Assembly (NCBI RefSeq): GCF_003797765.1
Contig: NZ_RKMB01000006.1
Coordinates: 1-64,000, forward strand
Direction: 5' to 3'
Source of the DNA: Ramlibacter sp. WS9
GTDB lineage: Bacteria; Pseudomonadota; Gammaproteobacteria; Burkholderiales; Burkholderiaceae_C
DNA length: 64,000 nt
Both the position numbers and the translations under genes were made by a program. The notes beneath the pieces were generated by a model. The model had not been told where the DNA came from, did not search any database, and saw only the letters and a program-made list of their open reading frames with translations. Shown one piece after another: positions 3,649-26,838 of the stretch; within the stretch, counting starts at the first letter, position 1, and the number at the start of each line of letters is the position of its first letter.

Positions 3649-6303
3649 CTAAGCGCGTTCCGCCACCCAGCCCTGCACAGATTGCAGCGCGCCAGCCAGC
3701 TTGCTCGGATCGGTGCCGCCGGCCATGGCCATGTCGGGCTTGCCGCCGCCCTTGCCGCCCACCTGCTGGGCGACGAAGTTCACCAGGTCGCCGGCCTTGA
3801 CCTTGCCCATGCTGTCGGCGGTGACGCCGGCTGCGATCTGCACCTTGCCGCCTTCGACCGCCGCCAGCACGATGGCCGCCGTCTTGAGCTTGTCCTTGAG
3901 CTTGTCCATGGTGTCGCGCAAGGTCTTGGCGTCGGCGCCGTCGAGGCGCGCTGCCAGCACCTTGATACCCTTGACATCCACGGCCTGCGACATGAGCTCA
4001 TCGCCCTGCGACGAAGCCAGCTTGCCCTTGAGCGCGGCGACTTCCTTCTCCAGCGCGCGCACCTGGTCCAGCACCTGCGTCAGGCGGCCTTGCACTTCGG
4101 CAGGCGGCGCCTTGAGCGTGCCGGCGACGCCATTCACGGTGGACTCCAGCTGCTGCAGATACGCAAGCGCGTTGGCCCCCGTCACCGCCTCGATACGGCG
4201 GATGCCGGCGGCCACGCCGCCTTCGCTCACGACCTTGAAAAGCCCGATGTCACCCGTGCGCTGCACATGCGTGCCGCCGCACAGCTCGCGCGAAGAGCCG
4301 ATGTCCAGCACCCGCACGCTGTCGCCGTACTTCTCGCCGAACAGCATCATGGCGCCGGTCGCCTTGGCCGCCTCGATCTCCATCACGCGCGCCAAGGTCT
4401 GCTGGTTGGCCAGGATTTCCGCGTTCACGCGTTTTTCGATCTCGCGGATCTCGGCGTCGCTCACGGCGTGGTTGTGCGTGAAGTCGAAGCGCGTCTTGTC
4501 GGCGTCGACCAGCGAGCCCTTCTGCTGCACGTGGTCGCCCAGCACTTCGCGCAATGCCTTGTGCATCAGGTGGGTGACGCTGTGGTTGCGCATGGTGGCG
4601 TGGCGCACGTCCATGTTGACCTTGGCGGTGACGGCGTCGCCGACCTTGAGCGAGCCCGAGGCCAGCGTGCCGTGGTGACCGAACACGTCGCCCTTGATCT
4701 TCTGCGTGTCGTCGACAACAAATCTTGCTCCCTCGCCCCTCTGGGGAGAGGGCTGGGGTGAGGGGCTCTCGACCACGCCCTGGTCGCCGACCTGGCCGCC
4801 CGACTCGGCGTAGAACGGCGTGGTGTCCAGCACCACGATGCCGGCCTGCCCGGCCTTCAGTTCATTCACCGCCACGCCTTCGGCGTATAGGGCCACGACC
4901 TTGGCCGGCTCTTCCAGCTTCTCGTAGCCGGTGAAGATGTTGCTGATGCCCGCGTATTCCAGCGCGCGATCCATCTTGAACTTGCCGGCCGCGCGGCCCG
5001 CGGCCTTCTGCTTTTCCATCGCGGCGTTGAACCCCGCTTCGTCCACCGTCACGCCGCGCTCGCGGCAGACGTCGGCCGACAGGTCCAGCGGGAAGCCGTA
5101 GGTGTCGTGCAGCTTGAAGGCGACGTCGCCCGGCAGCACGGTCTTGCCGCCGGCCAATGCGGCGTCGAGGATTTCCATCCCGTTTTCCAGCGTCTCGAAG
5201 AAGCGCTCTTCCTCGGCCTTCAGCGTGTCGACGATCTTCTTCTCGCTCGCCTTGAGGCTGGGATACGCATCGCCCATCAGGCGCACCAGGTCGGGCACCA
5301 GCTTATGGAAGAACGGCGTCTTCTTGCCCAGCTTGTAGCCGTGGCGGATGCCGCGGCGGATGATGCGGCGCTGCACGTAGCCGCGGCCTTCGTTGCTCGG
5401 GATCACGCCGTCGCTCACCAGGAACGAGGTGGCTCGCACGTGGTCGGCAATCACGCGCAGCGACGGGTTCAACAGGTCCTTCTCGCCGGTCTCGCGTGCG
5501 GCGGCCTTGATCAGCGCGTCGAAAATGTCGATCTCGTAGTTGCTGTGCACGTGCTGCAGGATGGCGGCGAGACGCTCCAGGCCCATGCCGGTGTCCACGC
5601 ACGGTGCGGGCAGGTTCTTCACGCTGCCGTCGGGCTGCATGTCGAACTGCATGAACACGTGGTTCCAGATCTCGATGTAGCGGTCGCCGTCCTGCTCGGG
5701 CGAGCCGGGCGGGCCGCCGGCGATGTGCGGGCCATGGTCATAGAAGATTTCCGAGCACGGGCCGCACGGGCCGGTGTCGGCCATCATCCAGAAGTTGTCT
5801 GAGGCGTACTTCGCGCCCTTGTTGTCGCCGATGCGCACCACGCGCTCGGGCGGCAGGCCGATCTCTTTCGTCCAGATGTCGTAGGCCTCGTCGTCGTCGA
5901 TGTAGACCGTGGCCCAGAGCTTGTCGGCCGGCAGCTTGTAGACCTGCGTCAGCAGCTCCCAGCCCCACTTCAGCGAATCGCGCTTGAAGTAGTCGCCGAA
6001 GCTCCAGTTGCCCAGCATCTCGAAAAAGGTGTGGTGCCGCGCCGTGTAGCCCACGTTCTCCAGGTCGTTGTGCTTGCCGCCGGCGCGCAGGCAGGCCTGC
6101 ACCGAGGCCGCACGCACGTAGGGGCGCTTGTCGGTGCCCAGGAACACGTCCTTGAACTGAACCATCCCGGAGTTGGTGAACATCAGCGTCGGGTCGTTAC
6201 CTGGCACCAGCGGGCTGGAGGCCACCACCGTGTGGCCCTTGGAGGCGAAGAAGTCCAGGAAGGTCTTGCGGATGTCGGCGACGGTGAATTTGGGGGTGCT
6301 CAT
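3649..6303 (-). CDS. alaS: alanyl-tRNA synthetase
   Basis: Charges tRNA-Ala; cytoplasmic and essential. The 884 residues compare with about 875 in E. coli. The class II catalytic core is at the N-terminus ([12 protein letters not shown], then [13 protein letters not shown], with [21 protein letters not shown] of motif 2). The editing domain has the metal-binding [16 protein letters not shown] and [13 protein letters not shown] blocks near residues 578-670, and the C-Ala domain ends with [15 protein letters not shown]. Oddly, about 14 extra residues ([14 protein letters not shown], near 513-527) sit between VGDQGVV and FVVDDTQK at the start of the editing barrel. They are encoded by a palindromic repeat and are listed separately. 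The frame stays open through the insert, so the protein should be full length. Confidence 0.97.
4726..4766. repeat. SPxQPSPxxGEG-type palindromic repeat inside alaS
   Basis: On the minus strand this is a C-rich arm, CTCACCCCAGCCCTCTCCCC, then AGAGGGGCGAGGG, so CCCTCTCCCC can pair with GGGGCGAGGG. Intergenic repeats of this form are widespread in proteobacterial genomes. Here it is read in frame and adds [14 protein letters not shown] to AlaRS. The related copy at 31107-31147 is in the same orientation and frame relative to its host gene. Confidence 0.8.
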
Positions 6304-6375
6304 CTTGTGCTTTGTGGAACGCGCGCGACCCGAATGGCGCGGCGCACGTAAATGCCTGATTCAGCTGAACCTTCG

Positions 6376-6381
6376 ATTATA
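6376..6381 (-). promoter_or_regulatory. -10 element of alaS
   Basis: On the minus strand the sequence is TATAAT, a perfect sigma-70 -10 hexamer, 73 bases upstream of the alaS ATG. The -35 is not convincing. Confidence 0.5.
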
Positions 6382-6467
6382 AGTTTGGGGCCATACCCTG
6401 CCCTGCGCTGGTTCGGCGGCCCCAGCCGCAGCCGCCAGCTGATCGCTGCAACATCCGGCTGCGATTG

Positions 6468-6496
6468 TTGAAATATCCGCCCTCATTGCCTACAAA
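6468..6496 (+). promoter_or_regulatory. candidate sigma-70 promoter for the DUF1059 gene
   Basis: TTGAAA at 6468 and TACAAA at 6491 are separated by exactly 17 bases, close to consensus, and lie 73 bases upstream of the small gene's ATG. Nothing else is visible in the rest of the 265-base gap after alaS. Confidence 0.5.
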
Positions 6497-6568
6497 TGAA
6501 TGGGAATGGGCAGCGTCCGCGCCGCCCATCCTCACGCACATCCCCGCGCGGACTCACAAGGAGCTGTC

Positions 6569-6796
6569 ATGGCACGCCAATACATTGATTGCCGCGAATT
6601 CCCGAGCGAAACGAACTGCAGCGTCGCTATCGCCGCCGACAACGAGCGCGAGCTGGTGAATGCCGCTGTCCAGCACGCGGTGGCGGTACACGGCCACACC
6701 GACACACCCGAGTTCCGCAGCCAGATCGCCTCTGCCATCAAGCAGGGGACGCCGCCCGTGGAAGCCCCCGTTCAGCAGGCGGCGGCCGCCGGCTGA
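6569..6796 (+). CDS. DUF1059 family small protein
   Basis: A 75-residue cytoplasmic protein starting MARQYIDCREFPSETNCSVA, with AHPRADSQGA-like upstream codons rejected because ACAAGGAGCTGTC gives a good ribosome site for the ATG at 6569. It matches the DUF1059 pattern: a short strand with a DCRE motif and paired Cys (C8, C17), then ADNERELVNAAVQHAVAVHGH and a helical end with EFRSQIASAIKQGT. The Ala/Pro-rich tail is low complexity. The family's function is not established. The gene stands alone, ending two bases from the stop of the convergent MocR gene. Confidence 0.8.
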   Translation: MARQYIDCREFPSETNCSVAIAADNERELVNAAVQHAVAVHGHTDTPEFRSQIASAIKQGTPPVEAPVQQAAAAG

Positions 6797-6797
6797 A

Positions 6798-8210
6798 TCA
6801 GCACGTGCCAGGCCCAGCGCGATTGAGCGATTCACCCTGCAGGAACGAGAACACCGCCCCGTCCGTGCAGTACGCGACGTTGAAGCGCAGCCAGGGCCCG
6901 GGCGCCAGGTCGGTTGAGAACAGGTGGCCCGGCCCCATCATGATGTCGTGCTCAGCCGCCTTGTACGAAAGCTCCGCGGCGCTGGGCACGGCCGGGTGTT
7001 TGGCCCACAGGAACATCCCGGCCTTGGGCTCGCAAAACAGCTCGAAACCCAGCTCCAGCAGCCCGTGTGCGGTCGATTGATGCGCCTGCGCCAGCCGCTC
7101 CCGCACGCTCTTGATGTGTTTGCGCCAGCGGCCGTCGATCAGCGCGCCATAGGCGAGGCGCTCGGTGAACTCGGATGAAGTGAGGCCCGACAGCATCTTC
7201 ATCTGCGCCAGGTCTTCCAGCAGGTCGGCCTGGGCCGCCATGTAGCCCACGCGGATGTTGGGTGAGATGGTCTTCGAAAAGCTGCTGATGTAGACCACCC
7301 GCTGCAGCTGGTCCAGGCTGGCCAGCGAGGGCCGCGGCTCCGGGTCCAGGTCCACATAGATGTCGTTCTCGACGATCACGAAGTCGTATTTCTCGGCCAA
7401 CTGCAGCACGCGATGCAGGTGCGACAGTTGCGCGGTGGATGCCGTGGGGCTTTGCAGCCGGGGATGCGTGAAGAACACCTTGGGCCGGTGCTCCTTGATG
7501 CGCGCTTCGAGCACGTCCAGGTCCCAGCCCTGCGGCGTGCGCGGCGCGCCGATCAGCCGCGCGCGCAGGAAGCGCAGCGACGACAGCAGGTTCGCGTAGC
7601 CCGGCTCGTCCACCAGAACGGCATCGCCCGCGCGCACCAGGCGCCGTGCCGCCAGGTCCAGCGCCTGGCTGGAGCCCTGCGTCAGCAGGACTTGCTCGGC
7701 GGTGGTGACGACCTCCTGCTCCGCCAGCAGGTCGCGCACCAGCTGGCGCAGTGGCGGGTAGCCCTTGGGCTCGCCGTAACCGCCCAGGTCGATCTCTTCG
7801 GCGGCCAGGGTGCGCAGGCTCTTTTTCAAGCCCTCCGCGAAGAGCCACTCGTTGGGCAGCCAGCCGCAGCCCGGCTTGCTGCGCAGCGCGCGGTTCTCGA
7901 AGATGCGCCGCATGTACCACATCGAATCGAAGGTGTAGTTACCGCGCGTGCTGGTCTGCGCCAGCGCGCCGGTGGCGCGGCTGCGCACGAAGAAACCGGA
8001 ATGCGGACGCGAGGCGAAGAAACCGAGCGCGACCAGGCGGTCATACGCGTCGACCACCGTGTACACGCTGACTTCGTGCGAATGCGCGAACTGCCGGATC
8101 GAAGGCAGCTTGGTTCCCGCACGCAACTGCCCCTCTTCGATCATCCGGCGGAAGCCGTCGACGATCTGCGACACCAGCGGTGTCGGCAATTGGCTGTCGA
8201 GGGCAAACAT
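6798..8210 (-). CDS. MocR/GabR-type transcriptional regulator (GntR-HTH plus aminotransferase fold)
   Basis: 470 residues. Residues 1-80 form a GntR winged helix (LVSQIVDGFRRMIEEGQLRAGTKLPSIRQFA), and about 110-460 a class I aminotransferase-like domain with the PLP-lysine motif SSFSKTISPNIRVGY (Lys about 314) and the VDEPGYANLL and NDIYVDLD blocks. In this family the domain binds PLP and an effector amino acid instead of catalysing. It is transcribed away from the gabT-type gene across 158 bases holding a direct repeat, so it is the likely regulator of the transaminase-transporter operon. GabR (GABA) is the closest functional analogue; PdxR or TauR-like function cannot be excluded. Confidence 0.88.
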   Translation of the reverse strand: MFALDSQLPTPLVSQIVDGFRRMIEEGQLRAGTKLPSIRQFAHSHEVSVYTVVDAYDRLVALGFFASRPHSGFFVRSRATGALAQTSTRGNYTFDSMWYMRRIFENRALRSKPGCGWLPNEWLFAEGLKKSLRTLAAEEIDLGGYGEPKGYPPLRQLVRDLLAEQEVVTTAEQVLLTQGSSQALDLAARRLVRAGDAVLVDEPGYANLLSSLRFLRARLIGAPRTPQGWDLDVLEARIKEHRPKVFFTHPRLQSPTASTAQLSHLHRVLQLAEKYDFVIVENDIYVDLDPEPRPSLASLDQLQRVVYISSFSKTISPNIRVGYMAAQADLLEDLAQMKMLSGLTSSEFTERLAYGALIDGRWRKHIKSVRERLAQAHQSTAHGLLELGFELFCEPKAGMFLWAKHPAVPSAAELSYKAAEHDIMMGPGHLFSTDLAPGPWLRFNVAYCTDGAVFSFLQGESLNRAGPGTC

Positions 8211-8244
8211 CGGTGCGGGCTCTTAAGGGTTTGTGTGTACTGGT

Positions 8245-8267
8245 TGCATCGCCTGCACAGTGCATCG
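8245..8267. promoter_or_regulatory. direct repeat, candidate MocR operator
   Basis: TGCATCG occurs at 8245-8251 and again at 8261-8267, spaced 16 bp start to start, in the intergenic region between the divergent regulator and gabT-type genes. GabR and PdxR-type regulators are known to bind direct repeats. A TATATGTT stretch just downstream (8286-8293) may be a -10. Confidence 0.4.
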
Positions 8268-8368
8268 GCTGTAGCGGCCCATCTGTATATGTTAGCCGCG
8301 CACCTTCGTTCCTACAGTGCTGGCAACCCGGACAGGAAAGGCCTGACCGGAAAAGCAAGAGGAATGCC

Positions 8369-9664
8369 ATGCAACGAGAGATTCATCTGACCAACGCCGC
8401 CCTGCTGGCGCGCCGCCAGGCCGCCGTGCCGCGCGGCGTCGGCCACGCCCATGCGATCTTCGCCGCCCGGGCGGAGAACGCCGAGGTGTTCGACGTCGAG
8501 GGTCGCCGCTACATCGACTTCGCCGGCGGCATCGCCGTGGTCAACACCGGCCACCGCCACCCGGCCGTGATCGCGGCCGTGAAGGACCAGCTGGACCGCT
8601 ACACGCACACGGCCTTCCAGGTCCTGCCCTACGAGCCCTATGTGGAACTGGCCGAGAAGCTGAACGCGATGGCGCCCGGCGACTTTGCGAAGAAGACCGT
8701 GTTCCTCACCACCGGTGCCGAAGCGATCGAGAACGCGATCAAGATCGCGCGCGCCTACACGGGCCGGCCGGGCGTGATCGCCTTCGGCGGCGGCTACCAC
8801 GGCCGCACGCTGCTGACGCTGGGCCTGACGGGCAAGGTGGCGCCGTACAAGACCGGCTTCGGCCCCTTCCCCGCCGACATCTTCCACGCCGTGTTTCCGG
8901 ATGCCGCGCGCGGCGTCAGCGTGAACGACGCGATGGCGTCGATCGCCGCGATCTTCCGCAACGACATCGAGGCCGAGCGCGTCGCCGCCATCATCCTGGA
9001 ACCGGTGCAAGGCGAAGGCGGCTTCAACGTCGCGCCGCCCGAGCTGATGCGCAAGCTGCGTGAGCTGTGCGACACGCACGGCATCCTGCTCATCGCCGAC
9101 GAAATCCAGAGCGGCGCAGGCCGCACCGGCACCTGGTTCGCGATGGAGCAAATGGGTGTAGCGGCGGACCTCACGACCATCGCCAAGTCCATGGCCGGCG
9201 GCTTTCCCATCTCCGCGGTGATCGGCCGCGCCGAGGTGATGGATGCGCCCGGCCCAGGCGGGTTGGGCGGCACGTACGCGGGCAGCCCGGTGGGTTGCGC
9301 GGCGGGACTCGCGGTGCTGGAAGTGTTCGAGAAAGAAAACCTGCTGCAGCGCGCGCGCCAGATCGGTGAACGCCTGGGGTCCGGCCTGGCGACGCTGGCC
9401 CAGCGCCACACCTGCATCGCCACGGTGCGCGGGCTGGGTGCGATGGTGGCCTTCGAGTTGTCGCACGGCGGTGACCTGCACAAGCCCGACGCGGACCTGG
9501 CCAAGCGCGTGGCTGCGGAGGCGGCCCGGCGCGGCCTCATCCTGCTGACCTGCGGCACCTGGGGCAACGTGATCCGCATCCTGGTGCCGCTCACGGCCAG
9601 CGACGCGCTGGTGGACGAGGGCCTGGGCATCCTCGCCGAATCGCTCAACGCCTGCACCGCCTGA
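8369..9664 (+). CDS. gabT: 4-aminobutyrate-type (omega-amino acid) transaminase
   Basis: PLP-dependent class III aminotransferase of 431 residues that moves an omega-amino group to 2-oxoglutarate. The ATG at 8369 follows AAGAGGA and starts MQREIHLTNAALLARRQAAV. Family marks are FDVEGRRYIDFAGGIAVVNTGH, FLTTGAEAIENAIKIAR, AFGGGYHGRT, LIADEIQSGAGRTG and the PLP lysine in TTIAKSMAGGFP (Lys about 273). This is the GabT/PuuE subgroup. It opens a transporter operon that ends with succinate-semialdehyde dehydrogenase, so the pathway omega-amino acid to semialdehyde to succinate is complete within the cluster. The exact substrate (GABA or a relative) is inferred. Confidence 0.9.
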   Translation: MQREIHLTNAALLARRQAAVPRGVGHAHAIFAARAENAEVFDVEGRRYIDFAGGIAVVNTGHRHPAVIAAVKDQLDRYTHTAFQVLPYEPYVELAEKLNAMAPGDFAKKTVFLTTGAEAIENAIKIARAYTGRPGVIAFGGGYHGRTLLTLGLTGKVAPYKTGFGPFPADIFHAVFPDAARGVSVNDAMASIAAIFRNDIEAERVAAIILEPVQGEGGFNVAPPELMRKLRELCDTHGILLIADEIQSGAGRTGTWFAMEQMGVAADLTTIAKSMAGGFPISAVIGRAEVMDAPGPGGLGGTYAGSPVGCAAGLAVLEVFEKENLLQRARQIGERLGSGLATLAQRHTCIATVRGLGAMVAFELSHGGDLHKPDADLAKRVAAEAARRGLILLTCGTWGNVIRILVPLTASDALVDEGLGILAESLNACTA

Positions 9665-17362: not shown

Positions 17363-17436
17363 GCGGGTGTAGTTCAATGGTAGAACGGCAGCTTCCCAAG
17401 CTTTAGACGTGGGTTCGATTCCCATCACCCGCTCCA
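17363..17436 (+). tRNA. tRNA-Gly (anticodon CCC), CCA encoded
   Basis: A full cloverleaf is readable: acceptor GCGGGTG pairs with CACCCGC, the D arm is GTTC/GAAC, the anticodon loop TTCCCAA gives CCC, and the T arm is GTGGG-TTCGATT-CCCAT (one G-T pair). Discriminator T is followed by an encoded CCA. The anticodon stem is imperfect at its outer end (C-T opposition), which is unusual. No second copy of the 3' end is found within the window, so there is no evidence that it was used as an attachment site. Confidence 0.95.
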
Positions 17437-17577
17437 AATAAGCTTTGGGCGAGATCCTCAAGGAGATGGTGGGGAAATCACAGCCCGGCGACAACACCGG
17501 GGCCCCACATCAAGAACACTCCCGTCCCGCAGCGCGCAGGCTACCTGCACGGCCTTGCGCAACCTGACCTCACGCTG

Positions 17578-19326
17578 GTGCTGCGCATTGCGCGTCCCGC
17601 CCGATGGGACGCCGCCAAGCTCGATGGCTGGCTCGCCCGTTCGTTCGGCGTCGAACCCGGGCCTGTCCCCATTGCCCCGGAAGACGATGAGGCGCACGCC
17701 CTCATGCGTGCATTTACCTGGCGTGCCCTCCACCTGGGCACCGCACTGCTGCGTGCGGTGAAGATTCCCGCGCTTGCGCCTTGCCGCATCCTCGCCATCG
17801 CGGGTGGGCCGAACATCTTCGAAGTCCGGTTCGCGGCCCCCCGCATCGACCGGTTGAGCCCCGAAGTGCCGGGCCGCGAGGCGGCAGAGCACAAGGCCCA
17901 CGAATTCGCATTCGGCAATGCCGTGCGGACGCTCCACGGAATGTGTGCCCTCGAGGAGGCGCCCCAGGCCACCGCACACGCGCACGACGAGCTGCAGCAG
18001 TCCTTCGTCAAGACCTTGGATGCGATGGTTCAAGGTGGTGGGTCGACGGTACCGCTGCTGCAGGCAGCGTTCAGCCTGGACATCCCCTTCCGCCACCTGA
18101 GCGCAGGCGTCTTCCAGCTGGGATGGGGCAGCGCGGCGCGGCGTGTCGATCGCGGCGCCATCCAGTTCGACTCGGCGATCGGCGCGCGCATGGGTCAGGA
18201 CAAGGCCGTCTCCGTGGCCTTGATGCGCGATGCGGGCCTGCCGGTGCCGGCGCAGGAGCGCGTGCCGCCGGGCGATGACGGAACGCAAGCCGCTCGGCGC
18301 CTGGGCTGGCCCGTCGTGGTCAAGCCGGCCGACCGCGACCGCGGTGAAGGCGTCACGGTGGACATCGTGAATGACGCCAGGCTGGCCAGCGCGATCGCGC
18401 AAGCGTCGAAGTTTTCGCGCCGCGTGCTGATGGAGCGCCAGGTGACGGGTGTGTGCCACCGCGTCGTGGTCGCCGCGAACGAAGTGCTGCTGGTGTCCAA
18501 GCGCCTTCCCAAGCTGGTCCGGGGCGATGGCGTGCATTCGGTCGCGCAGCTGGTGGCCCGCGCCAACGAAGAGGAAATGGCGAAACCGCCATGGACGCGC
18601 CTGAAGCCCTTTCCCCTGGATGAAGTCGCGCTGGCCTGCCTGGCCCAGTCGGGCCTCTCGCCCTCGTCGGTCCCGCCGGAGGGCCACCCCGCGCCGCTGC
18701 GCCGCATCCAATCGTCAGCCGAAGGCGGCGTGGTCGAGGATTGGACCGACCGCATCCATCCGGACAACGTCGAGATCGCACTGAAGGCCGCCCGCCTGTT
18801 CGGCTTTGCCATCGCCGGCATCGACATCATTTCGCAGGACATCAGCCGCCCATGGCACGAGAACGGGGCCGTCCTGAACGAGGTGAACTATTCGTCGCTG
18901 CTGCCCAGCCGGTTGTCGGCCCACGTGCTGCCGATCCTTCTGCGCAAGTTTTTTGCGGCAGACGGCCGTATTCCGGTCGACCTCGTGATGGGCGGCCCCG
19001 AAGCGGCGGCGGAGGGGCTGCGGCTGCGGGCCGCCCACGCCGAAGCGGGGCTGCGCTGCTGCATGGCCGGCCATGAACGCGTGGTCGCGGCCGATGGCAA
19101 GGAAATGCCGGTCGCGGCACAGGGCCTGTTCGGGCGCACGCTGGCATTGCTGCTCGACCCGGACGTGGACGCGCTGGTGCTCGTCGTGCAGACGGACGAG
19201 TTGCTGCGCACCGGGTTGCCGGTAGACCGCATCAACCGCGTCGTGGAAACCGCGGACGCTGCGGGGGCTCCGTGGCTGGGCGGAATGCGCGAATTGATTG
19301 GGCGCTATCGCACCGAAGCCATGTAG
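17578..19326 (+). CDS. cyanophycin-synthetase-like ATP-grasp ligase without Mur-ligase domain
   Basis: 582 residues from the GTG at 17578. The N-terminal part resembles the N-domain of CphA (VPLLQAAFSLDIPFRHLSAG then VFQLGWGSAARRVDRG, about 158-193). The ATP-grasp fold follows: QDKAVSVALMRDAGLPVP, lysine loop GWPVVVKPADRDRGEGV (243-259), HRVVVAANEVL (294-304) and the metal-binding GIDIISQDIS (414-423) and LNEVNYSSLL (433-442). CphA then carries a Mur-ligase half that adds Arg; here only about 120 residues follow, with no Mur P-loop. It should therefore form one type of acyl phosphate-derived amide bond. It converges, with a 22-base overlap, on the HExxH gene and its Lys-rich peptide, a likely substrate. 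The frame reads open upstream of the GTG with protein-like codons from 17509, so the start is uncertain. Confidence 0.8.
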   Translation: MLRIARPARWDAAKLDGWLARSFGVEPGPVPIAPEDDEAHALMRAFTWRALHLGTALLRAVKIPALAPCRILAIAGGPNIFEVRFAAPRIDRLSPEVPGREAAEHKAHEFAFGNAVRTLHGMCALEEAPQATAHAHDELQQSFVKTLDAMVQGGGSTVPLLQAAFSLDIPFRHLSAGVFQLGWGSAARRVDRGAIQFDSAIGARMGQDKAVSVALMRDAGLPVPAQERVPPGDDGTQAARRLGWPVVVKPADRDRGEGVTVDIVNDARLASAIAQASKFSRRVLMERQVTGVCHRVVVAANEVLLVSKRLPKLVRGDGVHSVAQLVARANEEEMAKPPWTRLKPFPLDEVALACLAQSGLSPSSVPPEGHPAPLRRIQSSAEGGVVEDWTDRIHPDNVEIALKAARLFGFAIAGIDIISQDISRPWHENGAVLNEVNYSSLLPSRLSAHVLPILLRKFFAADGRIPVDLVMGGPEAAAEGLRLRAAHAEAGLRCCMAGHERVVAADGKEMPVAAQGLFGRTLALLLDPDVDALVLVVQTDELLRTGLPVDRINRVVETADAAGAPWLGGMRELIGRYRTEAM

Positions 19327-20234
19327 CTGGCCGCGGCCCGCATGACCGATGCACCCGTCGGCGTGAGGCGGCCATGCTCGGCGACCACGCCGTGCCCAGA
19401 CCAGAAGTTGACCGCATCGCTCTTGCGCGCCGCTTCGGCCCTGCGCTGCGCCTCATCGTCCAGCTGCCCGCTTTCCAGCAGGTGCGACATCGCCCAGTGC
19501 ATGCGCGCCGAGACGAACGTCGCGTGGAAAATGCCATCCATGGGCCGCTCGTCGACACGAAGGGGCGAGCGGTACAGCTCGTCGTCCTCGTTCTCCACCA
19601 GCGCCTCGTCTGCCGCGCAGGCATAGAGAAGGAGGTGCGCGCTCTCGTGCGCCATGACCTCGACCATCGTCACTTCGTCGGGGTGGGAGGTCGCGTTCAG
19701 GAACAGCCCGCCCCAAAGCATGTAGCCCGAGCCGCCGTCGAACTGGTATTTTGCTTTCGGGTCGCCAACGACCAGGATGACGTCGCTGACCAGCGCGTCG
19801 AATTCGGCGGCCAGGCCCGGTACAGCCCGTTCCATCAGTGCGAAGCTGCGCAGCAGTCGCTCACCATAGGCCGACGCCAAATCGGGCGAGGGCGGCGCGA
19901 TGAGGAAGCTGATGTTCGGGTCGGAGTCGAGCTGGCGGGCATAGAGCGCCAGGTGGCGCACGTGCGCGGACGCGTCGAGCGGCAGCACACGCCAGCGGCC
20001 GGCCAGCGGCACTTCCCGCAGGAGCTCTTCGAGCTTCGCCTGTGCCAGCCCGGCGTCGTCACCCTCGACCAGGGCAAGCACGAGCTCACTGTAGATGCCG
20101 AACGTCGAGGCTGGATACCGGGCGCCGGCACGCATGCGCGCCGCCATGGCGGCGAGCGATGCATCGTCGAAGGGAATCTGCCCGCGGACCTGGTCGCCGA
20201 TGTGGACAAGACTGTCGGCCAGCGACAGCCGCAT
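19305..20234 (-). CDS. HExxH-type putative peptide-modification enzyme
   Basis: 309 residues. The metal site is VMAHESAHLLLY (HESAH at 196-200), followed about 25 residues later by RVDERPMDGIFHATFV, the second conserved block of the family annotated as HExxH-motif putative peptide-modification proteins; to my knowledge some members are now described as 2-oxoglutarate-dependent peptide beta-hydroxylases. These enzymes are found with RiPP precursors. The N-terminal 190 residues are helical and may bind the leader. There is no signal peptide. The ATG at 20234 has no Shine-Dalgarno; the frame runs back 20 codons (through LVAFSFAPDGARARTLDAR) to the stop of the upstream peptide gene in the same frame, so coupling or a CTG start at 20291 is possible. 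A plain metallopeptidase role remains an alternative. Confidence 0.72.
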   Translation of the reverse strand: MRLSLADSLVHIGDQVRGQIPFDDASLAAMAARMRAGARYPASTFGIYSELVLALVEGDDAGLAQAKLEELLREVPLAGRWRVLPLDASAHVRHLALYARQLDSDPNISFLIAPPSPDLASAYGERLLRSFALMERAVPGLAAEFDALVSDVILVVGDPKAKYQFDGGSGYMLWGGLFLNATSHPDEVTMVEVMAHESAHLLLYACAADEALVENEDDELYRSPLRVDERPMDGIFHATFVSARMHWAMSHLLESGQLDDEAQRRAEAARKSDAVNFWSGHGVVAEHGRLTPTGASVMRAAASYMASVR

Positions 20235-20294
20235 GCGCGCATCGAGCGTGCGGGCCCGGGCGCCGTCGGGCGCGAAAGAAAAAGCGACCAGGGC

Positions 20295-20474
20295 TCAGCC
20301 GGACTTCACGCCGGATTTGGTGCCCAGTTTGGTACCGACCTTTCCGGCAACCTTGCCGCCCACCTTGGGGCCGGCCTTCGTGCCGGAGATACGGGCCACG
20401 GGCGTCTCGACGCGCTTGTCCGCGAGGATCTTGAAGCCATAAAGACGGGACAGGTCGAGCTGGATGAACGGCAT
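20295..20474 (-). CDS. 59-residue Lys/Gly-repeat peptide, candidate modified-peptide precursor
   Basis: I know no family for this peptide. Residues 1-31 (starting MPFIQLDLSRLYGFKILADK and ending VARISG) look like a leader: amphipathic, with hydrophobic residues spaced as in a recognition helix or strand. Residues 32-59 are seven consecutive tetrads of the form xKxG, beginning TKAG and ending VKSG, with Ala replacing Gly only in the third. There is no signal peptide. The ATG at 20474 was chosen because it begins the sensible sequence; its ribosome site is weak. The HExxH gene follows in the same frame and strand, and the ATP-grasp ligase gene converges on it. The regular Lys spacing suggests side-chain or backbone modification at each repeat. 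The reading frame is real with good confidence; its function is inferred. Confidence 0.7.
   Translation of the reverse strand: MPFIQLDLSRLYGFKILADKRVETPVARISGTKAGPKVGGKVAGKVGTKLGTKSGVKSG
20298..20381 (-). repeat. seven-unit 12-bp tandem repeat encoding xKxG
   Basis: The 84 bases code for seven tetrapeptides with Lys in position 2 and Gly (once Ala) in position 4. Codons vary between units (AAG and AAA for Lys; GGC and GGT for Gly), and positions 1 and 3 differ, so the protein pattern is kept while the DNA has drifted. That argues for selection on the peptide rather than recent slippage. Confidence 0.85.
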
Positions 20475-22176: not shown

Positions 22177-22632
22177 TCATGTGGGACGGCGCTCACCGGT
22201 CAAGACTTTCAACCCGCTCAATTTGGAGAAGTCACGATCATGCGTCACCAATGCGACGGCCCCTATCTCGAGCGCAGTGGCGGCCAGGAGAGCATCCGGA
22301 AGGCGCAGGCCGGTGGAAGCCCTCAAGCGCGCGGCGGTGACCGAAATTTCTGCCGTCACAGGCATGAGGTCGAACGAACCGAGCGCCCTCTCGTAGCGCT
22401 TGGCCAGCGCGTCCAATCCTTGTTTCAGCGGACCGACAAGGACTTCGGCGAGGCTGATCGTGGAAACAGCGATCTGAAGCCGGCCGCTTTCGGCCGCCTC
22501 GAACAAACCGTCGAAGAGAGGAGCGAAGGTCGGGTGGTCTTCGAGGATGTAGATCAACGGCGCTGTATCGACAACGACCAAATCGCCATCGTCGAGGCCT
22601 GCCCACAGGGCTGAGGATTTTCGCGAGGCCAT
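22177..22632 (-). CDS. PIN-domain toxin (VapC-like)
   Basis: A 151-residue PIN-fold ribonuclease toxin. The four acidic metal ligands are visible: Asp in VVVDTAPLIY, Glu in SLAEVLVGP, Asp in LRLPDALLAATA and Asp in THDRDFSKL. Members cut tRNA or rRNA when released from the antitoxin. It lies six bases after the antitoxin gene and ends four bases from the amidase stop (convergent). The N-terminus starts MASRKSSALWAG, slightly longer than usual. Called VapC-like on fold and partner; the target is unknown. Confidence 0.85.
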   Translation of the reverse strand: MASRKSSALWAGLDDGDLVVVDTAPLIYILEDHPTFAPLFDGLFEAAESGRLQIAVSTISLAEVLVGPLKQGLDALAKRYERALGSFDLMPVTAEISVTAARLRASTGLRLPDALLAATALEIGAVALVTHDRDFSKLSGLKVLTGERRPT

Positions 22633-22638
22633 GACCCG

Positions 22639-22890
22639 CTACTTCGTCCATTCCTCGCGCAGGTCTGCGATTTTCTGTGCGGGAGACTTGCCCCACAGTC
22701 CCTTGCCAGTACCCCGCAATGCCAGGAACGACTGCTTGCGACGCGACTTGAGCAGCAATTCCGGCCCCACGATGGCCGCGTACGGCTTGCCGTGCTTGGT
22801 CAGCAGGCTGCCCATGCCGCTGTGCGCCGATTCCGCAAGTTGAGGCAGTTGCTTGCGAGCCTGTTCCAAACCGATAGTGCGAGTTGCCAT
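22639..22890 (-). CDS. Phd/YefM-family antitoxin
   Basis: 83 residues. The Phd/YefM DNA-binding fold is seen in TIGLEQARKQLPQLAESAHS followed by LLTKHGKPYAAIVGPELLL. The C-terminal tail, which in the family wraps the toxin, is basic then acidic (LREEWTK). It is first in the pair with the PIN toxin, as usual. A TGTACA double site overlapping a perfect TATAAT lies 12-32 bases upstream, fitting autoregulation. Confidence 0.85.
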   Translation of the reverse strand: MATRTIGLEQARKQLPQLAESAHSGMGSLLTKHGKPYAAIVGPELLLKSRRKQSFLALRGTGKGLWGKSPAQKIADLREEWTK

Positions 22891-22930: not shown

Positions 22931-23536
22931 TCACTCCCATAAACCGAGCTGTTCGCCACCCTGCCCGCTCGGCGCCGGCGGCCCGAGCTCCCTTCCCGGC
23001 GTGACGCCGAAGCGCTCCACGACTTCGTAGCGTGCCGGCTTGGCCTGCGGATACAGCACCGACCAGACCAGCACGACCTCGTCGACCCGCCAGCGGATAG
23101 GCTGCACCGCCTCGGGCGGTCTGGCCTGGGCCGCGTTGCGCGCCAGGGTCACGTGGGCTTTGAAAGTGTTGTGCACAACGGGCAGTCCAGCCTGCGACAC
23201 GGCTTCCGCCACGCGCCCTTGCAGCGCCTGCAACCCATCGTGGTCCGCGGGCCTCAACACCGCGACGTGGTTACGCCAGACTTCCGGGACGCGCAACTCC
23301 AGCTCCAGCGGCGTGACAACGACTTCGCGCAACGCCTTGCGCAAGCGCTGCTCGGGCGCCAAACCAACCTCACCGAGGAAACAGAGCGTGAGGTGATAGC
23401 ACCCGAATCGTGTGGGCTTTGCCTGTTCGGGCCATTCCCATTGGCGGCAGTGGCGCTGGATGGCAGCCTGCAGTTGGCGATCGGGCATGAGGCCGATGAA
23501 GAGGCGGTGCGGCGTGGGGATCGCGCTCGTGGCCAT
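22931..23536 (-). CDS. thpR: RNA 2',3'-cyclic phosphodiesterase (2'-5' RNA ligase family)
   Basis: A 201-residue 2H-phosphoesterase. The two catalytic HxTx motifs are HLTLCFLG (near 48) and HVTLAR (near 130), with the N-terminal RLFIGLMPD block. It opens cyclic phosphates or makes 2'-5' links in RNA. The ATG at 23536 overlaps the dnaE2 stop by one base (TGATG), so it is translationally coupled to the damage-inducible polymerase; a TTG at 23539 is a less likely start. The link suggests DNA-damage induction of an RNA-repair activity, though many thpR genes simply travel with neighbours. Confidence 0.9.
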   Translation of the reverse strand: MATSAIPTPHRLFIGLMPDRQLQAAIQRHCRQWEWPEQAKPTRFGCYHLTLCFLGEVGLAPEQRLRKALREVVVTPLELELRVPEVWRNHVAVLRPADHDGLQALQGRVAEAVSQAGLPVVHNTFKAHVTLARNAAQARPPEAVQPIRWRVDEVVLVWSVLYPQAKPARYEVVERFGVTPGRELGPPAPSGQGGEQLGLWE

Positions 23537-26500
23537 CAATGAAAGTCCCGGCTTTTGCTGCTCTGCTGGCCCAGGCGGCCGAGCAGCGGGGTCAGGTCTT
23601 TCATCCGCTCGGCGACCAGGTGCCGCACCTCGCCGCCGCTGTCCTCATCGCGCTGCCATTTGCCCCACACGGCGAGCAGGCGCGAGCGCAACAGCGCTTC
23701 GCGCTGCTTCTCGCGCACATGCCGCCACACGATCACGTTCACCGGGCCTGTCTCGTCTTCCAGGGTGACGAAGATCGTACCGTTGGCCGTCTGCGGCTGC
23801 TGGCGCACGGTGACGATGCCGCAGGCCGCGACGCGCTGTCCGCTGGGCAAGTGGTGCAACTCTTTTGCATTGAGCAGTTTCATGCGCGAAAGGCGCGGCC
23901 GCAATAGCGCCAGCGGATGGCGGCGCAAGGTCAGGCCCATGGAGGCGTAGTCGAAGACGATCTCCTCGCCTTCGGCCGCGGGAGGCAGGCTCAACGCCTC
24001 TTCGTTGACAGGCGCGCCTTGCAGCAGGGCCGGCGCGCGCCGCTGGGCGGCCGCGTCCCACACCTGCTGGCGGCGATGGCCCGAAAGTGACATCAGCGCG
24101 TCTCCCGCCGCCAGGGCGTTGATGTCTTTCATGTCCAGCTCGGCTCGTATCGCCATGTCTTCGGTGCTGGTGAAAGCAGCTTGCTCGCGAGCCGCGACGA
24201 CGCGCTGGCCCCCTGCTTCGCTCAGGCTGCCGATCATGCGCAGGCCGAGGCGGACGGCGGGGCGGGAAGAATTGGAATCTGACCCCAATTTGCAGTCCCA
24301 GTCGCTGTGGGAAACGTCGGGCGGAAGTACTTGCACGCCATGGCGGTCCGCATCCTGGATCAGCTGCGAGGGCGAGTAGAAACCCATGGGCTGGGAGTTG
24401 AGCATGGCAGCCAGGAAGCATTCGGGTTCGTGGCATTTGAGCCAGCTGCTCGAATAGGCCAGCAGCGCGAAGCTGTAGGCGTGGCTTTCGGGGAAGCCGT
24501 AGTCGCCGAAGCCTTCGATCTGCTTGAAGATGCGATGGGCGAATTCCTCGGAGTAGCCCTTGCCCAGCATGCCGCCGACCAGCCTGCGCTGGTATTTGTC
24601 GACGCCGCCTTTGCGCTTCCACGCGGCCATGGCGCGGCGCAGCCCATCGGCCTCCGAGGCGCTGAAGCCGGCGGCGATCATCGAAATCTCCATCACCTGC
24701 TCCTGGAAGATGGGGATGCCCAGCGTGCGCTCCAATGCCTTCTTGAGGCGCGGCTCCTGGCCGGGAAGCTCCTGGGAAGAGCGCTCGTACTCGATCGTCT
24801 TTTTCTGCGCCACGCGCTCGCGCGCCTTCAGGTACGGGTGCACCATGCCGCCCGAGATCGGCCCGGGCCGCACGATGGCCACTTCCACCACCAGGTCGTA
24901 GAACACCTTGGGCTTCAGGCGCGGCAGCATCGACATCTGGGCCCGGCTTTCGATCTGGAACACGCCCACGGTGTCGGCTTTGCGGATCATTTCGTAGGTT
25001 GCCGGATCTTCCGAGGGGATGTCGTAACGGGTGAACGGCACGCCGCGCCGCTGGCTCACGAAGTCCAGGCAGCGCCGGATGGCAGTGAGCATGCCCAGCG
25101 CCAGCACGTCGACCTTCATCAGCCCCATGTCCTCCAGGTCGTCCTTGTCCCACTGGATGACGGAACGGTCCTTCATGGACGCGTTTTCCACCGGCACCAG
25201 GCTCGTGAGCCGGGTCTGCGTGAGCACGAAGCCGCCCACGTGCTGGCTCAGGTGGCGCGGAAACCCCATGAGGTCCTCGGTGAGCTCCAGCCACAAGCGG
25301 GCGTTTTGCTCGCTGATTTCAACGCCCGTGGCCTGCGCCAGTTCACCCAGGCGGCCGGTGGCCAGCTCATCGTCGAACCAATGATGGTCCTTGGCGAAGG
25401 CGTCGATCAGCGGTTCGGCGACGTCCAGGGCCTTGCCCACATCGCGGATAGCGCTGCGGGTTCGGTAGCAGATGACCACCGCGGCAATCGCGGCACGCTC
25501 GCGCCCGTACTTGTCGTAGATGTACTGGATGACCTCTTCACGCCGCTCGTGCTCGAAGTCCACATCGATGTCGGGTGGCTCGTTGCGGCGGTCGATGCTG
25601 ATGAAGCGCTCGAGCAGCGGGTTGGAATGTTCGGGGTCGGCCGCCGTGATGCCCAGGCAATAGCACACGACCGAGTTGGCCGCCGAACCGCGGCCCTGGC
25701 AGAGAATTTCCTTGCTCTCGGCGAACCGCACGATGTCGTGCACCGTGAGGAAGAACATTTCATAGTTGCACTGGCGGATCAGGGCCAGTTCCTTGGCCAG
25801 GTAGCGTTTGATCTTGAACGGCGTGGCCTTTCCCGCATAGCGCCGGCGCATGCCTTGCAGGACAAGATCCCGCAACCCCTGCGTCGGCGTCATGCCCGCG
25901 GGCACGGTTTCCTGCGGGTAGTCGTATTGGATGGAGGTCAGGTCGAAATTGCAGCGCGCCGCCACTTCCACCGTGGCGGCCAGCAGTTCGGGCGGATAGA
26001 TTTCGGCCAGGCGCTTGCGCTGGCGCAGGTGCCGCTCGGCATTGGCCTGCAGCTCGAACCCGCATTGCGCTACCGGCTTGCCCACGCGCACGGCCGTGAT
26101 CACGTCATGCAGGCGTTTGCGCGAGCGCACGTGCATGTGCACATCGCCGGCGGCCACCAGGGAGACGCCGCATCGCTCGCCGGCCTTCTGCAGCGTAGCC
26201 AGCCAGAGATCGTCGTCGAGCTGGTGCAGCAGCTCCACCGCCAGCCACACACGGGAGCCGAGAAGTCCCACCGCCTTCGCGAGGCTGGTGCAAATCTCTT
26301 CCGGGCCGGCAGCGGCGTTGCGCTTGGGCACGTAAAGGATTTCGCAGCCGGCCAGCTGGCTGAAATCGCTGGCATCCCAGCCCACGCGGTATTCGCCCTT
26401 GGGCGCCGTCATCCGCGCGGCGGTGATGAACTCGCACAGGCCACCCCAGCCTTCCATGTCGCGCGCGATGGCGACCAGGCGGCAATCGCCCATGTCGAAT

Positions 26501-26838
26501 TCGCTGCCAAATAACAGCTTGAAATCACGCAAACGCTGCTGGCTGGGATGCTGCGCTTCGAGCCTCTCGATAAATGCCTTGTACTCCTTCAGCCCCGACC
26601 AGGCCCGCACCACCCCGGCGACCGAACATTCGTCGGTGATGGCCAGGGCGGCATAGCCCAGGTCGTAGGCGCGGCGCACCAATTCCTGCACATGCGAAGC
26701 CCCGCGCTGGAAGCTGAAATTGCTGAGGCAATGCAGCTCCGCATAACCGGGCAGCAAGTCAGGGCCTTCCCCCAGCACGGGAGGCACGTCGCGCTCCTCG
26801 TTGAGGAACGGGCCGGATTTGACATGGTATTCAGGCAT
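23536..26838 (-). CDS. dnaE2: error-prone DNA polymerase DnaE2 (ImuC)
   Basis: A 1100-residue C-family polymerase used for mutagenic lesion bypass with ImuA and ImuB. The PHP domain is at the N-terminus (YAELHCLSNFSFQRGASHV, about 31-49), and the catalytic palm includes the PDIDVDFEHERREEVIQYIY acidic pair (near 430). The fingers/helix-hairpin region (FPESHAYSFALLAYSSSWLK) follows, then an OB domain (GTIFVTLEDETGPVNVIVW) near 1040. DnaE2 lacks the tau-binding tail, as here. Unusually, about eight residues near 849-858 (LGSDSNSS) come from a palindromic repeat and disturb the expected DWDC...PAVRLG junction. The gene overlaps imuB by eight bases. It is SOS-regulated through the LexA box at 28863. 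Confidence 0.95.
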   Translation of the reverse strand: MPEYHVKSGPFLNEERDVPPVLGEGPDLLPGYAELHCLSNFSFQRGASHVQELVRRAYDLGYAALAITDECSVAGVVRAWSGLKEYKAFIERLEAQHPSQQRLRDFKLLFGSEFDMGDCRLVAIARDMEGWGGLCEFITAARMTAPKGEYRVGWDASDFSQLAGCEILYVPKRNAAAGPEEICTSLAKAVGLLGSRVWLAVELLHQLDDDLWLATLQKAGERCGVSLVAAGDVHMHVRSRKRLHDVITAVRVGKPVAQCGFELQANAERHLRQRKRLAEIYPPELLAATVEVAARCNFDLTSIQYDYPQETVPAGMTPTQGLRDLVLQGMRRRYAGKATPFKIKRYLAKELALIRQCNYEMFFLTVHDIVRFAESKEILCQGRGSAANSVVCYCLGITAADPEHSNPLLERFISIDRRNEPPDIDVDFEHERREEVIQYIYDKYGRERAAIAAVVICYRTRSAIRDVGKALDVAEPLIDAFAKDHHWFDDELATGRLGELAQATGVEISEQNARLWLELTEDLMGFPRHLSQHVGGFVLTQTRLTSLVPVENASMKDRSVIQWDKDDLEDMGLMKVDVLALGMLTAIRRCLDFVSQRRGVPFTRYDIPSEDPATYEMIRKADTVGVFQIESRAQMSMLPRLKPKVFYDLVVEVAIVRPGPISGGMVHPYLKARERVAQKKTIEYERSSQELPGQEPRLKKALERTLGIPIFQEQVMEISMIAAGFSASEADGLRRAMAAWKRKGGVDKYQRRLVGGMLGKGYSEEFAHRIFKQIEGFGDYGFPESHAYSFALLAYSSSWLKCHEPECFLAAMLNSQPMGFYSPSQLIQDADRHGVQVLPPDVSHSDWDCKLGSDSNSSRPAVRLGLRMIGSLSEAGGQRVVAAREQAAFTSTEDMAIRAELDMKDINALAAGDALMSLSGHRRQQVWDAAAQRRAPALLQGAPVNEEALSLPPAAEGEEIVFDYASMGLTLRRHPLALLRPRLSRMKLLNAKELHHLPSGQRVAACGIVTVRQQPQTANGTIFVTLEDETGPVNVIVWRHVREKQREALLRSRLLAVWGKWQRDEDSGGEVRHLVAERMKDLTPLLGRLGQQSSKSRDFH
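24270..24291. repeat. GGAATCTGACCCC-type repeat inside dnaE2
   Basis: AATTGG-AATCTGACC-CCAATT: 6-bp inverted arms around the core GGAATCTGACCCC. It is read in frame as LGSDSN. The same core lies at the gcvT stop (54937-54958). From memory this motif recurs across beta- and gamma-proteobacterial genomes, often near REP-associated transposases; that should be checked. Confidence 0.7.

Follow-up and report, generated by a model that had tools for sequence, protein, structure and literature searches.

A recurring cassette of a lysine-repeat peptide, an HExxH oxygenase and one of two ligases in Ramlibacter: a candidate new class of ribosomal peptide

What brings a cyanophycin-synthetase-like ligase, an enzyme with an HExxH motif and a short lysine-rich peptide together at one spot in the genome of Ramlibacter sp. 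WS9? The DNA analysed here, referred to as the window, comprises the opening 64 kb of contig C147 from the 6.98-Mb draft genome of this bacterium (G000), and the three genes are packed into 17.4–20.5 kb of it. Comparison with related loci indicates that they almost certainly form a genuine, recurring and dedicated cassette of the kind that makes ribosomally synthesized and post-translationally modified peptides (RiPPs). The architecture given in a preliminary description of this DNA is borne out by the analysis: a relative of cyanophycin synthetase (CphA) stripped of its Mur half on the plus strand, a protein of an HExxH peptide-modification family on the minus strand, a 59-residue peptide with a leader-like and a lysine-repeat half directly upstream of the latter, and convergent stops that overlap by 22 bases. 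The cassette has the following features.

17407–19326, plus strand: open frame of the CphA-like ATP-grasp ligase (‘Cph’ type), identified by profile match, fold model and frame check
17539–17565, plus strand: conserved ligase N-terminal motif GYLHGLAQP, in the ligase frame
18331–18351, plus strand: ligase phosphate-binding loop DRDRGEG, with Arg at the position of CphA1 His267 and Glu at that of Arg269
19305–19326, both strands: stretch of 22 bp in which the convergent ligase and HExxH genes overlap at their 3′ ends
19305–20234, minus strand: α-ketoglutarate (aKG)-HExxH-type peptide hydroxylase, 309 amino acids, identified by its match to TIGR04267
19635–19649, minus strand: HESAH metal-binding motif (all 28 aligned members have HExxH)
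20285–20301, minus strand: weak terminator-like hairpin with a T-rich tail, between the peptide gene and the HExxH gene
20295–20474, minus strand: precursor peptide gene, 59 amino acids, stop codon included, identified as an open reading frame (ORF) and by the peptide profile
20424–20474, minus strand: leader MPFIQLDLSRLYGFKIL, with the conserved motif xLDxxKLxGFKI
20298–20423, minus strand: core ADKRVETPVARISGTKAGPKVGGKVAGKVGTKLGTKSGVKSG, with KxG repeats

The peptide and HExxH genes are separated by 60 bases; terminator-like hairpins such as the one listed occur at three sites in the region, against 1.7 expected by chance.

The same three genes, with the same layout and the same overlap, are present in Caenimonas sp. 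SL110 (G050, locus L008; identities of 60, 69 and 51%), which shares a genus-level group code with the window genome; the 22-bp overlap is present in L006/L008 and L009. A first HExxH-led scan of the species-genome collection, made with an alignment of two HExxH proteins, returned 29 loci; it used two short peptide patterns, so that only fairly close relatives were within reach. Ligase profiles placed a CphA-like ligase at 10 of these loci, a second family, referred to here as the short ligase, at 18, and neither at one (L035), where the HExxH gene is cut by the contig end. The peptide profile matched 26 of the 29 at an E value of 1e-3 and 27 at 1e-2, the two loci lacking a peptide (L025 and L035) both lying at contig ends. 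An independent HExxH search of 369 class-level genomes matched seven loci in six genomes: the window, one repeat of L016 (L048, dropped as it encodes the same peptide) and five new loci. All five hold a ligase (two CphA-like, three short); the peptide was found by profile in three of them and by eye in L053, and L052 is truncated where its contig stops.

Altogether 35 distinct HExxH-led loci, the window included, hold a ligase gene in 34 cases (13 CphA-like and 21 short; L035 is the sole exception), a precursor peptide in 32 (31 by profile and one by eye, the three misses being at contig ends) and all three genes together in 32, in varying gene order. Conservation of the genes as a group in relatives, on which the preliminary description had made its proposal depend, is thus what was found. 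Two loci in which the HExxH gene is cut or decayed, L035 and L036, are included in these counts but do not enter the HExxH alignment or tree. A reverse search from the short ligase through 398 phylum-level genomes gave four matches, three of them with both the HExxH gene and the peptide. Where found, the peptide is encoded on the HExxH strand and upstream, the exception being the second peptide of L029, which lies downstream; the apparent downstream placement of the L021 and L030 peptides is due to a long open frame overlapping them. Relative to the HExxH gene, the ligase gene may converge, diverge, or run in parallel on either the upstream or the downstream side. The cassette is rare and its distribution patchy: the HExxH gene turned up in 2 of 59 same-genus genomes, and the peptide in 2 of 399 at family level. 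Some of the carrier genomes are metagenome bins and may be mislabelled.

Among ORFs of at least 120 amino acids in the window and the 29 loci, several of which are cut short, no cassette-specific exporter or protease was seen, and neighbour clusters other than the cassette genes and the frames opposite HExxH reach at most five loci. One of these, an ABC-transporter ATPase cluster (identified by eye at L009), occurs in five loci, mostly several kb off, and was rejected as a part of the cassette. Another apparent cluster, in eight loci, is the frame opposite HExxH, and an apparent common gene of L020, L026 and L034 lies largely opposite the short ligase and was taken as an antisense artefact; the two members scanned gave no match above the cut-off. 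No DNA near-match of the region was found in the plasmid collection. PADLOC returned zero matches for five proteins, which lends no support to a known defence system. In a Thiobacillus metagenome-assembled genome (L036, 4037–6451), a full-length ligase is accompanied by a truncated peptide and no more than the last part of the HExxH gene, a decaying cassette.

The window peptide matches no NCBIfam or Pfam family. Across 36 precursor sequences the leader follows the pattern x[IV]xLDx[ST][KR]LxG[FY][KR][IL], from which some rows depart, and K[IVLM]G is present in all but that of L032. Around the 236 core lysines, glycine is found at +2 in 142 cases and at −2 in 149, and lysine at +4 in 105, so the core is a K-x-G-x repeat in which glycine ranks second in regularity. 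The C-termini differ between precursors, and no acidic position is conserved: each core holds between 0 and 6 Asp and Glu, of the 97 acidic residues in the cores 54 are at most 12 residues from the leader, eight of the 36 precursors lack acidic residues beyond residue 25, and that of L016 contains neither Asp nor Glu. Precursors look alike beside either ligase, with 4.4 KxG units per peptide for the CphA-like type (12 sequences) and 3.7 for the short type (24 sequences). Because the peptide profiles came from the same loci, circularity was checked by leaving out each of 21 peptides and rebuilding the profile; all 21 were recovered as the best match of their own locus (E 1.8e-7 or better). In 33 control loci (212 kb of CphA1, orphan-ligase and L057 loci, some overlapping) the profile had zero matches. 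The arrangement by which a RiPP system is recognized, a small precursor with a conserved leader and a variable repeat core beside modifying enzymes, is found here. Four loci (L014, L026, L029 and L031) carry two precursor genes each, as in RiPP clusters with several substrates.

The HExxH protein of the window scores 101 bits against TIGR04267.2 (‘aKG-HExxH-type peptide beta-hydroxylase’), whose cut-off is 40; the family matches 28 of 28 aligned members, at E values up to 0.001, the score having been compared with the cut-off for the window protein. Downstream of HExxH is a motif, SPxRxDxRPxxGxxHAxFV, most positions of which are invariant or near-invariant in the 28 rows and which aligns with ChlH; the residues of the two motifs are presumably the iron and aKG ligands. 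An AlphaFold2 model (predicted local distance difference test score (pLDDT) of 95.2) resembles ChlH, an aKG-dependent oxygenase, in its HExxH domain (PDB 8s5f; Foldseek E 1.6e-10, template-modelling score (TM) of 0.62), and the sequence profile also finds 8s5f (2e-8) and 22nu/22ob (6e-6), 22ob being titled SjiH. Assignment of the protein to the aKG-dependent peptide hydroxylases, with a predicted oxidation activity, is well founded in these comparisons, and the hydroxylation proposed in the preliminary description stands to that extent. Within this family the cassette enzymes make up a separate subfamily. Excerpts from two papers describe enzymes of this type as hydroxylating His, Asp, Phe, Gln and Pro, and some as cleaving the backbone (PMC12636437, PMC13060819). 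No typical RiPP recognition element was seen in the HExxH protein, whose N-terminus is modelled as helical (judged by eye on the secondary-structure line). A distant HExxH protein (L007, G079:C65; 35% identity over 134 residues), used as the outgroup of the HExxH tree, is encoded beside SagD-type YcaO and ThiF-like genes, in a RiPP-type cluster of another kind and not in this cassette.

The window ligase has an NCBIfam model of cyanophycin synthetase as its best curated match (6.1e-73), with 246 bits against a cut-off of 877 (210 against 850 for a second model). A sequence profile of the CphA-like ligase finds the G domain of cyanophycin synthetase (7wac, 4e-71), its model (pLDDT 80.8) adopts the CphA1 fold (Foldseek 7wae, E 1.9e-37), and 7ta5 and 8fxh/8fxi are the sequence and fold matches that bear on CphA2. 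Functional residues of TeCphA1 were mapped onto ten aligned CphA-like members; in the part of the source consulted, His267 stabilises the acyl phosphate, Asn394, Ser396 and Arg458 bind the incoming aspartate, and Arg309 binds the C-terminal carboxylate (PMC9427784). Kept in all ten ligases are Lys220, Lys261, Arg309, Arg323, Glu450 and Asn452. His267 is replaced by Arg and Arg269 by Glu in all ten, Asn394 by Ser, Thr or Ala, and Ser396 by Ala, Glu or Asp, whereas the position of Arg458 holds a gap or another residue and never Arg; the Mur P-loop (GTNGKT) is absent from all ten. Three members outside the ten were compared afterwards: L051, the only other full-length member, and the pieces of L049 (in two frames) and L013 (cut) agree with this signature as far as they reach, position 261 of L049 being Asn in one piece and Lys in the other, at the frame break. 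With the ATP- and Mg-binding residues kept and the aspartate-binding residues lost, the CphA-like ligase is predicted from its sequence still to activate a carboxylate with ATP and should not add aspartate as CphA1 does.

Upstream, the ligase frame is open from 17407, and its first 30 bases (17407–17436) overlap a tRNA-Gly gene and are very probably not part of the protein. The first ATG, GTG or TTG of the frame is a GTG at 17578, downstream of the conserved N-terminal motif, which points to either a non-standard start codon or an assembly indel. The start at 17466 proposed in the preliminary description has to be withdrawn, as this ATG belongs to another reading frame with a stop at 17567. 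The tRNA-Gly (CCC) gene (17363–17436, plus strand) lies directly upstream of the ligase gene, and the cassette may have entered beside it.

The short ligase, of about 318 residues (33–73% identity to the first row among 25), carries an invariant signature, GR.D...E.N.NP, in which D238, E250 and N252 are invariant in 25 of 25. This signature aligns with the C-terminal end of D-Ala-D-Ala ligase (E 0.0012), in the form GRaDf...YEINTNP, and Pfam gives a weak D-Ala-D-Ala ligase C-terminus in 5 of the 25 members (best E 0.034); for the remainder of the protein, PDB, Pfam and NCBIfam yield no significant sequence match. By this signature it is a probable ATP-grasp enzyme. An hhalign comparison of the short and CphA-like ligase profiles found no similarity, and homology of the two types is therefore not claimed. 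The two never occur together (0 of 35 loci, within the stretch examined). On the HExxH tree (37 rows, several of them long, with 15 of 34 inner branches open), the ligase type must have changed at least twice, a minimum that holds when weakly supported branches are disregarded; one type has thus replaced the other more than once, which argues for equal function. The CphA-like ATP-grasp named in the preliminary description is accordingly a cassette ligase, at 13 of 35 loci, and only one of two interchangeable types. One genome, G525, holds a locus of each type (L049 and L050), and its CphA-like ligase is the one in two reading frames.

These observations are best explained, at about even confidence for the explanation as a whole, by a RiPP-type cassette with recruitment by the leader, hydroxylation of the repeat and ligase-driven acylation of lysine. 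The conserved leader would recruit both enzymes; the oxygenase would hydroxylate residues within the K-[IV]-G repeats; and the ligase would use ATP to activate a carboxylate from outside the peptide side chains, which would be coupled to the lysine side-chain amines, one repeat after another. Since neither an exporter nor a protease specific to the cassette came to light, the finished product may function within the cell or leave it by a general export route. Action of the ligase on the peptide is likely. Its chemistry is less firmly placed: acylation of lysine by an outside carboxylate is the most likely reaction, owing to the lysine-centred repeat common to both ligase types, the variable C-termini and the dispensability of side-chain carboxylates, and we hold it tentatively, at somewhat less than even confidence.

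The main rival follows from the retention of Arg309. The ligase may phosphorylate the C-terminal carboxylate of the peptide and add at least one amino acid, as CphA1 and RimK do, with the oxygenase hydroxylating the core or the added residues. Arg309 and Arg323 are both kept in 10 of 10 ligases and the overall CphA fold agrees with such a reaction, but the C-termini differ widely among the 36 precursors, in contrast to the near-constant K[IVLM]G, and the residues for the incoming amino acid are the ones lost; C-terminal extension is possible and, on balance, rather unlikely. Graspetide-like macrocyclisation, in which lysine amines are linked to the side-chain carboxylates of core Asp or Glu residues, would suit the lysine-rich cores, and the excerpted graspetide survey presents graspetides as the best-known case of ATP-grasp enzymes beside RiPP precursors (PMC8939145). 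No acidic residue is conserved, however, and the cross-linking that the preliminary description had allowed for is weakened to the point of being very improbable; as a general chemistry, side-chain rings are excluded by the L016 precursor, provided that it is correctly called.

Oxidative cleavage of the backbone at the K-x-G repeats, followed by capping of the resulting short amidated lysine peptides by the ligase, has a precedent in PflC and PosC, aKG-HExxH enzymes described in part of PMC12636437 as cutting the backbone at ARMD to leave an amide, and the regular glycine of the repeat would fit it. Against this, other members of the family hydroxylate side chains in the excerpt of PMC13060819, and no ARMD-like motif was noticed in the precursors; we regard cleavage as improbable, if less so than side-chain rings. 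Least probable of all is that the genes are unrelated neighbours, the peptide and HExxH protein forming one RiPP system and the ligase acting on a small molecule. Such a separation would account for close CphA-like relatives that stand apart from HExxH genes, with an AMP-binding enzyme or a 2OG-Fe(II) oxygenase as neighbour, but the retention of a ligase in nearly every HExxH locus, through varying gene orders and with two ligase types alternating, speaks for a common function.

Several findings weigh against lysine acylation within a dedicated cassette. Retention of Arg309 suits C-terminal extension equally well. The CphA-like subfamily (support 100/99) contains three non-cassette members, which form one side branch (95/90). 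One, G000:C125 (L088, about 5507–8931), is an orphan in the window’s own genome with no HExxH gene; another, at L009:11518–14718, is an AMP-binding domain fused to a ligase of this branch and lies about 0.7 kb from the L009 cassette ligase; the third, of the same branch (G652, L091, G652:C11, 7616–10267), lies beside a 2OG-Fe(II) oxygenase (PF13640, 1e-12), and no KxG peptide was found at that locus by the peptide profile. All three share the residue signature of the cassette ligases, which is thus not exclusive to the cassette. Further points are a short-ligase locus with no HExxH gene (L057), a short ligase about 5.5 kb away from its cassette (L024), the assignment of the short ligase as only a probable ATP-grasp enzyme (E 0.0012, with no profile match to the CphA-like group), and the lack of a clean start codon in the window ligase gene, which could be damaged.

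The orphan ligase at L088 overlaps the end of a gene that by eye encodes an AMP-binding, acid-activating enzyme; L088 and the L009 fusion look like a second, different pathway, and L091 represents another pairing of a hydroxylase with a ligase. Two more distant copies in G000, on C66 and C169, both keep Asn394. A ligase search of 299 genomes gave four matches above 560 bits, two of them in cassettes (the window and G836).

Among known systems, those built on aKG-HExxH enzymes (ChlH, BpmH, PflC/PosC and PesO) share with the cassette the TIGR04267 family, the ChlH fold and a precursor encoded alongside. Their partners, as far as the excerpted sources describe them, are a fused radical S-adenosylmethionine domain, a multinuclear non-haem iron-dependent oxidative enzyme (MNIO) with a nitroreductase, or an MNIO with an asparagine-synthetase-like enzyme, whereas the partner here is a ligase; the KxG-repeat precursor, which matches no family searched, is a further difference. 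With CphA1 and CphA2 the CphA-like cassette ligase shares the ATP-grasp G domain, the ATP/Mg residues, Arg309, Arg323 and the overall fold. CphA2 also has no working Mur half. The ligase differs from CphA1 by the exchanges of His267 and Arg269, the lost aspartate-binding residues, the lost Mur P-loop and the ribosomal peptide alongside. Graspetides of the microviridin type resemble the cassette in having an ATP-grasp ligase beside a small precursor; the cassette is set apart by cores with no conserved acidic residues, one precursor with neither Asp nor Glu, and an oxygenase partner. No microviridin-type ATP-grasp model is among the best 25 of 46 NCBIfam matches for the window ligase, nor among the matches listed for two short ligases. 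A word search of the excerpted graspetide survey finds neither cyanophycin nor HExxH (PMC8939145), and in the open-licence literature we recognized no description of a pairing of HExxH, an ATP-grasp or cyanophycin-synthetase-like ligase and a RiPP precursor.

Elsewhere in the window, a small gene pair at 22177–22890 (minus strand) appears by eye to encode a PIN-domain toxin and its antitoxin, and a 1100-amino-acid ORF at 23536–26838 (minus strand) appears by eye to encode the error-prone polymerase DnaE2.

On the sequence evidence, the cassette is a good candidate for a new RiPP class. A more specific picture is offered as a possibility of rather low confidence: a class of branched peptides in which a ligase of either type attaches an external acid, perhaps an amino acid, through isopeptide bonds to lysines along the whole core, and the HExxH enzyme adds hydroxyl groups to the repeats or to the attached groups. 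The product would be a templated cousin of cyanophycin that might serve as a multidentate metal binder, for instance with β-hydroxyaspartate as the added group, which is pure speculation. The analysis defines a family of precursors with a leader motif, together with two interchangeable ligases, for a pathway of RiPP type. Were the ligase to acylate lysines, it would provide a new route to branched peptides from a genetic template, and a useful biocatalyst, and would show the recruitment of a cyanophycin-synthetase-like enzyme to ribosomal peptides. The swap of one ligase type for the other is a natural experiment able to pin down the reaction that they share.

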